From contig JAJEGN010000011.1 of assembly GCA_022819855.1 (NCBI GenBank), positions 62,001 to 126,000 on the forward strand: 64,000 nucleotides of DNA. Reading direction: 5' to 3'. The notes under the pieces were generated by a model. It had not been told where the DNA came from. It saw only the letters and a list, made by a program, of their open reading frames with translations, and searched no databases. Both the position numbers and the translations under genes were made by a program. Shown here piece by piece: positions 57,363-58,389 of the stretch. How positions within the stretch are numbered: position 1 is the first letter of the stretch; each line of letters begins with the position of its first letter. The stretch comes from Gammaproteobacteria bacterium. GTDB taxonomy: Bacteria; Pseudomonadota; Gammaproteobacteria; Steroidobacterales; Rariloculaceae.

Positions 57363-57776
57363 TCAGCGCGCGGCATCAACCACTGTAGCGTGCCCAGTTT
57401 CGCCGTAAGCGATTATCGCTGCGTCAGCCGACACCAGCGGCGCGCTCCAGTGACGGGCCGTCGCGACGATCAGGCGGTCCGCAGGGTCGGCTTGAAAGGT
57501 ACCTGGTAGCCTTACGCTGTCCACCGCAACGCGTGGCTCTATCGGCAGCAGCCTGATACCGGGCTGCGCGAGCGCGGCTTCGATCCATTCGAAAGCCTCC
57601 CGTCCCAACCGTAAACGGCCTTTGTCCACCAACAAGGCGATTTCCCAAGGCGTGATCGCCGATACTCCAAGGGCATCATCGCGTGAGGCATCGACAATGA
57701 CTTGCCGCGCTTCAGGTCCCAGTTTCGGATCATTCTCCATTGCCCATATCAACGCATGGGTATCCAGGACGATCAC
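57363..57776 (-). CDS. PIN-domain toxin (VapC family)
   Basis: A 137-aa PIN ribonuclease. The GTG at 57776 is chosen because it overlaps the antitoxin stop by 4 bp (GTGA). The acidic metal-site residues are visible: Asp in VIVLDTHALIWAM, Glu in TPWEIALLV, Asp in DPADRLIVATA and a late Asp in VSADAAI. It should cleave RNA when not held by the Phd-type protein encoded just upstream. Confidence 0.88.
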   Translation of the reverse strand: MIVLDTHALIWAMENDPKLGPEARQVIVDASRDDALGVSAITPWEIALLVDKGRLRLGREAFEWIEAALAQPGIRLLPIEPRVAVDSVRLPGTFQADPADRLIVATARHWSAPLVSADAAIIAYGETGHATVVDAAR

Positions 57777-58015
57777 CGGAAAGCAGCCCAATCGGCCGGA
57801 TCAGCGGCGGGTAGAAACGGATCGTCGTAAGCCAATACAGAGCCCTGCAACGCACCCAGAATCGAAGTTCGGTCAACCGCGTCAGACACAGGCGAAAGCA
57901 CGGCTACCGCCCGGCCTCGCTTGGTGATGGTTACCGGCTCGCCGTTTTCGCGCATGTCGTTGATCAGCCGCAGGCACTTGGCCTTGAACTCTGCGGCGCC
58001 CACAATTTTTGTCAC
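57773..58015 (-). CDS. Phd/YefM-type antitoxin
   Basis: An 80-aa protein starting at GTG 58015 with the Phd/YefM fold: KIVGAAEFKAKCLRLINDM, then EPVTITKRGRAVAVLSP. The N-terminal part binds DNA and the tail should bind the PIN toxin. A palindromic operator lies 20 bp upstream, so it probably autoregulates the pair. Confidence 0.87.
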   Translation of the reverse strand: MTKIVGAAEFKAKCLRLINDMRENGEPVTITKRGRAVAVLSPVSDAVDRTSILGALQGSVLAYDDPFLPAADPADWAAFR

Positions 58016-58034
58016 GAATCCTGTCCTGTCTGAT

Positions 58035-58055
58035 ATGTACACCTTAAGTGTACAT
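58035..58055. promoter_or_regulatory. Palindromic operator of the antitoxin-toxin pair
   Basis: Perfect 8-bp inverted arms ATGTACAC (58035-58042) and GTGTACAT (58048-58055) with a 5-bp centre (CTTAA), 20 bp before the antitoxin GTG. This fits a Phd-type dimer binding site for autoregulation. Confidence 0.7.
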
Positions 58056-58155
58056 GTGTTCCGATGAGTTTGCATGCCCGTCGTACACGGGGCTTGTACA
58101 ATCGGATCGGAGACGGTCATCCGGGACCAGGCTCGAAGATCAACGGGCGAGAACC

Positions 58156-58389
58156 ATGAAAGTTTCGATCACCTATTGCGTCGCTTGAAGCTACCTGCCG
58201 AAGGCCTCCGGTCTGGCGGCCGAAATCAGCGACAAGCTCGGCTTCGATGTCGAACTCGAAAAGGGCCATCGCGGCATTTTCGACGTCGTTGCTGACGGCG
58301 AGGTCGTGTTTTCGAAGCATGACGCAGGAAGGTTTCCGGATCACCCGGAAGTCATCGATGCGCTGCGCGCCCTGACCGAGCGCGGCTAA
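58156..58389 (+). CDS. Rdx/SelW-like selenoprotein with in-frame UGA
   Basis: A 77-codon gene from ATG 58156 to TAA 58387-58389 with one in-frame TGA at 58186-58188 (residue 11). Read with selenocysteine (U), the protein begins MKVSITYCVAUSYLPKASG, so Cys8 and Sec11 form the CxxU redox motif of the SelW/Rdx thioredoxin-like family. The rest (AAEISDKLGFDVELEKG, then GIFDVVADGEVVFSKH, RFPDHPEVIDAL) is a standard Rdx C-terminal half, so coding pressure continues past the TGA. A SECIS-like hairpin lies 14 nt after it. It is probably a small redox protein. It converges with the ABC permease gene. A nonsense mutation is the alternative but is disfavoured by the intact downstream frame. Confidence 0.85.
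58203..58221 (+). promoter_or_regulatory. Bacterial SECIS-like hairpin
   Basis: GGCC pairs with GGCC and, across one U-C mismatch, CC pairs with GG, leaving a GGUCU apical loop (58210-58214). The loop equals the GGUCU of the E. coli fdhF SECIS, where it contacts SelB. It begins 14 nt after the UGA, with the loop G about 21 nt after it, about one codon further than in fdhF. The upper stem is short (2 bp), so the element is somewhat divergent. Confidence 0.65.

Follow-up and report, generated by a model that had tools for sequence, protein, structure and literature searches.

SelW-like selenoproteins have long been recognised in bacteria from sequence surveys. The Sargasso Sea survey of 2005 counted them among its most abundant families (PMC1088965), and the Global Ocean Sampling (GOS) study of 2008 did likewise, with 427 genes (PMC2398784), while a survey of 2006 considered that the form with selenocysteine (Sec) was probably the original one (PMC1794560). 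In a review of 2026, the bacterial SELENOW-like proteins (PF10262, CxxU) are classed as predicted with high confidence, but not experimentally validated (PMC13188914). The locus described here, which we refer to as selW, belongs to the same family as the proteins covered by these four studies and resembles them in its CxxU motif, where the second redox residue is a predicted Sec, and in a SECIS element that follows directly after the UGA. In organisms that use Sec, the Sec form of these proteins predominates. No difference in architecture was found; the one new aspect is the organism, from a gammaproteobacterial MAG lineage. The selW gene is thus a genuine new member of a bacterial family that has been known for twenty years, and the existence of such proteins is not news.

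The gene lies on the forward strand of the 64,000-nucleotide stretch of DNA that was analysed (the window; Table 1). An initial annotation had proposed an unannotated SelW/Rdx-like selenoprotein at this site, its in-frame UGA followed by a SECIS-like hairpin, and family assignment, conservation of the UGA, Sec machinery and a covarying hairpin all agree with it. Its coordinates were also correct: the frame runs for 77 residues from the ATG at 58156 to the TAA at 58387-58389, and is interrupted solely by the TGA at codon 11. With TGA read as Sec (U), the product is MKVSITYCVAUSYLPKASGLAAEISDKLGFDVELEKGHRGIFDVVADGEVVFSKHDAGRFPDHPEVIDALRALTERG. Standard gene callers were expected to stop at the TGA and, indeed, the list of open reading frames under translation table 11 holds nothing of at least 50 aa in the selW frame; the gene is probably missed by such programs. 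No strong Shine-Dalgarno-like sequence was found upstream of the ATG.

Table 1. Positions of the selW gene, its recoding elements and the sel genes (window coordinates, except for entries on contig C16 of the window's own genome, G000)
Feature	Position	Strand	Evidence and remarks
selW-like CDS, 77 aa, predicted Sec at residue 11, TAA stop	58156..58389	+	translation with TGA=U; PF10262 E=3.9e-17; TIGR02174 47.3 bits, cut-off 34.2
CVAU (CxxU) redox motif, residues 8-11	58177..58188	+	residues 8 and 11 do not vary (C/U) among 24 aligned homologues
UGA codon, predicted to be read as selenocysteine	58186..58188	+	TGA in 34/34 distinct close homologues covering the position; Cys in a single, more distant relative from the same order
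Putative bacterial SECIS hairpin GGCC-U-CC-GGUCU-GG-C-GGCC	58203..58221	+	6 bp and a U/C mismatch; a G-U can close the loop; covariation, synonymous constraint, E = -9.1 kcal/mol
Apical loop GGUCU	58210..58214	+	G 58211 invariant in the alignment; fits the N1-G-[G/U]-N-N2 bSECIS loop pattern
selA	G000:C16:80322-81680		559 bits
selB	G000:C16:78332-80203		311 bits
selC (tRNA-Sec)	G000:C16:78010-78098		77 bits; independently called by ARAGORN as tRNA-SeC, anticodon TCA
selD	G000:C16:72959-73873		

The assignment to the SelW/Rdx family, which had been made from the CVAU (CxxU) motif, was borne out by profile searches with the 77-aa translation. With the TGA read through, the product scored 62.6 bits against Pfam Rdx (PF10262; cut-off 22.6) and also exceeded the curated cut-off of NCBIfam TIGR02174 (CXXU_selWTH); against the narrower equivalog NF041051 (SelTWH_Campy) it reached 80.4, just under the cut-off of 88, and is not filed there. 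An AlphaFold2 model built from 24 homologues (mean pLDDT 87.5) showed a small alpha/beta fold in which CVAU directly follows the first strand (residues 2-8), the N-terminal position expected of the CxxU/CxxC motif in SelW/Rdx proteins. When the model was compared to known structures with Foldseek, the best matches were the SelW-related proteins 2fa8, 2obk, 2oka, 2ojl, 3dex and 2p0g (TM 0.85-0.91), followed by human MIEN1 and mouse SelW (2npb, TM 0.74), and then by thioredoxins. The product is thus predicted to adopt the thioredoxin-like SelW fold (TM 0.87-0.91 for 2fa8, 2obk and 2oka). These six best matches are Rdx/SelW-related proteins of the Cys type which, together with a Cys homologue from the same order as the window's genome (L057), carry Cys instead of Sec and are 20-35% identical to the selW product; where this was checked (L057), CxxC stands in place of CxxU.

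Conservation of the UGA was followed across homologues. A scan of the genome contigs yielded 26 relatives of selW, and the 24 that cover the position all have TGA at the same codon; in the other two, the match starts at residue 9 or the gene is cut by a contig end. The TGA-bearing relatives span Gamma-, Beta- and Deltaproteobacteria, Acidobacteria, Myxococcota, Planctomycetota and Actinomycetota. Within the same order, an Rdx gene was found in 12 of 58 genomes. In 11 of these it has a single in-frame TGA and in the twelfth it has Cys (YCTRC); this more distant Cys homologue, L057, comes from a genome without selA. Homologues with Cys or Sec at codon 11 had been named as supporting evidence, and any other residue as evidence against; the distinct close homologues that cover the codon all carry TGA (34 of 34), the only non-Sec residue found was Cys, and no residue other than these two was seen. 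Plasmid records gave only matches of 32-37% identity, in which residue 11 was not read, and no homologue was found in the phage records.

The sequence downstream of the UGA also behaves as coding sequence. Compared to two congeners, dN/dS in this part of the gene was 0.05/0.21 and 0.11/0.61; a ratio near 0.2 in close relatives points to purifying selection on the downstream half. The frameshifts in related strains that had been named as evidence against a selenoprotein were not seen, the frame being kept in close relatives. These values bear directly on the suggestion that the locus is a decaying Rdx pseudogene, in which a Cys codon TGC changed to TGA and the downstream frame is a remnant. A single-base change would indeed suffice to produce the stop, and gene callers end the gene at this point, but a remnant is difficult to reconcile with purifying selection after the TGA, with the same TGA across several phyla, with a hairpin that covaries and with intact sel machinery; on sequence grounds the conservation has already refuted this explanation, to which we attach next to no probability. 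It is just as improbable that a suppressor or an altered genetic code makes the UGA specify Trp or some other residue instead of Sec. The frame is also open under TGA=W, but 5 of 10 neighbouring genes in the window end at TGA as a normal stop, and the position holds Cys, not Trp, in the non-Sec relative as well as in the best-matching solved relative for which individual residues were displayed. Moreover, the genome has a bona fide tRNA-Sec together with SelB, and such a reading would leave the conserved hairpin unexplained. Reading of the internal UGA as selenocysteine is almost certainly what the comparative sequence data reflect.

The hairpin had been described as starting 14 nt after the UGA and as carrying a GGUCU apical loop, and both its position and its loop were confirmed, the loop starting 21 nt after the UGA. 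The published bSECIS model calls for a loop of 3-9 nt with a G in its first two positions, a stem of 4-16 bp, a distance of 16-37 nt between the UGA and the loop and an energy of at most -7.5 kcal/mol (PMC13188914), with a loop of pattern N1-G-[G/U]-N-N2 (PMC13188914, Fig 2). The selW hairpin agrees with these values, with a loop of 5 nt, 6 bp with one mismatch, a distance of 21 nt and an energy of -9.1 kcal/mol as calculated with a simple model without bulges.

The apical loop had also been likened to that of the E. coli fdhF SECIS, and the GGTCT motif was found in the fdhF sequence that we retrieved; it is common to both elements and lies 21 nt from the U of the UGA in fdhF and 24 nt in selW. 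The E. coli fdhF SECIS has a bulged U, in place of which the selW hairpin has a 1x1 U/C mismatch, and the apical part is more stable in selW (-9.1 versus -2.0 kcal/mol, both from the same simple model that disallows bulges). The fdhF protein itself is unrelated to the selW product.

Among 1568 other TGAs on both strands of the window, 63 (4.0%) precede a hairpin at least as stable and with a similar loop, and 16% are followed by one that satisfies minimal bacterial SECIS criteria. The hairpin alone is therefore weak evidence, and it is homology and covariation that carry the case for selW. Folding of the 45-nt single sequence gave no better energy than shuffled sequences (z = -0.26) and offers an alternative pairing (AGGCC/GGUCU); the structure was resolved by the alignment only. 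An Rfam search of the region returned no relevant family.

Evolutionary evidence for the hairpin was obtained from 33 homologues aligned without gaps, the most divergent one (L030), which does not fit the hairpin, being left out. In this alignment 90.6% of the cells form a standard pair, and four pairs show two-sided changes. The covariation score was 0.307 as compared to 0.143 in shuffles, none of 500 of which reached it, and to at most 0.106 in controls in which the structure was slid along the alignment; these slid controls pair in 25-50%. Since the structure was drawn from the same sequences, the pairing counts lean towards it, but the silent exchanges at third positions are independent of that. 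The pair at alignment columns 21-33 joins two third codon positions and appears as C-G, G-C and U-A, an exchange that coding constraint does not explain. Codons +6 to +10 after the UGA were much less diverse at their third positions than expected (z -5.1 to -9.2), whereas no codon elsewhere in the gene had a z below -3.6; the five most constrained synonymous codons are exactly those of the hairpin. At codon +8, serine is encoded by AGT in 17 of 17 cases, a codon used for 7 of the 103 serines in the rest of these genes, and glycine by GGT in 15 of 15 (21 of 189 elsewhere); the T of these codons corresponds to the conserved U in the apical loop. Covariation and synonymous constraint together set the hairpin apart from chance. 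It is conserved by compensatory change across the 33 homologues, as is expected of a bSECIS, and the SECIS element of the initial annotation can be described as a covarying and synonymously constrained hairpin. The excluded homologue, from an Actinomycetota MAG and the most divergent of those with TGA (L030:3031-3078), shows no matching hairpin at the shared position, and its SECIS may be located at another site or differ in shape.

These data also weigh on the idea that the hairpin is merely GC-rich coding sequence for a conserved A-S/A-G/S-L-A-A helix, and that recoding proceeds via something else. SECIS-like hairpins do follow 4-16% of TGAs in this GC-rich window, the fold z-score is unremarkable, and the hairpin sequence codes for a conserved segment of helix 1. 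Such a constraint on the protein, however, does not account for synonymous third positions fixed exactly at codons +6 to +10, for silent compensatory changes, or for a spacing and loop that fit the published bSECIS model, and we regard this explanation as very unlikely, if slightly less so than a pseudogene or a changed code. We favor, with high confidence and from comparative sequence data, a selW-like selenoprotein of the Rdx family whose 77 residues would be completed by SECIS-dependent decoding of the UGA as Sec. SelB with GTP and Sec-tRNA(Sec) would bind the hairpin just after the UGA, and codon 11 (58186) would be decoded as Sec instead of terminating translation. The product would be a small thioredoxin-like protein in which, judging from the chemistry of the family, Cys8-x-x-Sec11 would cycle between a reduced thiol/selenol and a selenenylsulfide; its family likewise suggests that it may act as a thiol/selenol oxidoreductase.

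Absence of sel genes from the same genome had been put forward as an observation that would speak against a selenoprotein. The genome of the window (3.73 Mb, 97.7% complete) carries selA, selB, selC and selD, all on one contig and within 9 kb (G000:C16:72959-81680). SelD makes up the C-terminal portion of a 751-aa protein (L058:2735-4990, on the same contig) whose N-terminal part resembles, by eye, an FAD/NAD(P)-dependent oxidoreductase; it reads without an in-frame stop and is therefore not a Sec-type SelD. Across the 58 genomes of the order, selA was present in 9 of 11 genomes with the TGA form of selW and in 5 of 47 without it (Fisher p = 8.5e-6, a value inflated by shared ancestry); within the family alone the figures were 9 of 11 and 5 of 11, which is not significant (one-sided hypergeometric about 0.09, calculated by hand). 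Co-occurrence is thus supporting rather than decisive. The two TGA-form genomes without a selA match, G004 (88% complete) and G018 (76% complete), presumably lack it because their assemblies are incomplete. In five genomes of the same family (G005, G008, G009, G010 and G011) selA is present and no SelW-like gene was found.

An ABC-transporter permease gene is convergent to selW, and the ABC transporter arrangement is kept in two congeners. The genes upstream differ: a PIN-domain toxin and a Phd/YefM-type antitoxin (57363-58120, reverse strand) lie directly upstream of selW in the window, in divergent orientation; the congener G001 lacks this pair here and has a metallo-beta-lactamase-fold-like and an NmrA-like gene instead (assigned by eye). 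Thus, selW is not in a conserved operon, and we rejected the gene neighbourhood as a guide to its function.

The selenoproteome of the same genome was sampled by family, and at least three more candidate selenoprotein genes were identified. Two are peroxiredoxin-like (PF00578, E = 6.5e-21 and 7.3e-20) with an in-frame TGA in UPFC, which makes them candidate UxxC selenoproteins (L091, TGA at 1618, on G000:C10; L092, TGA at 1531, on G000:C9). The third is deiodinase-like (L101, TGA at 860, G000:C22:12860; PF00837, E = 1e-30), with an in-frame TGA in SFTUPPF; both congeners have a gene that is 96% or 86% identical and likewise contains one in-frame TGA, and this deiodinase-like family is also known from bacteria. 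A covariance model of the selW hairpin run against the genome recovered only the selW locus and one match with E = 2.9, so these candidates do not share the selW SECIS sequence. Searches of the genome for a Sec-type FdhA/formate dehydrogenase gave nothing over the cut-off, the weak matches having no in-frame stop, and no TGA-bearing member of the CMD/AhpD family was found.

The annotation of selW is correct and useful, though no surprise, and since ordinary gene callers miss or shorten such genes, the record should be corrected. The clean covarying SECIS set, drawn from many phyla, offers a ready test case for the bacterial SELENOW-like proteins. We tentatively suggest that this lineage might have no Sec-type formate dehydrogenase and yet keep the full Sec machinery to make a few redox selenoproteins (the SelW-like protein, the two UPFC peroxiredoxin-like proteins and the deiodinase-like one), a possibility to which we give somewhat less than even weight; if true, the lineage would be a convenient model for the function of bacterial SelW.
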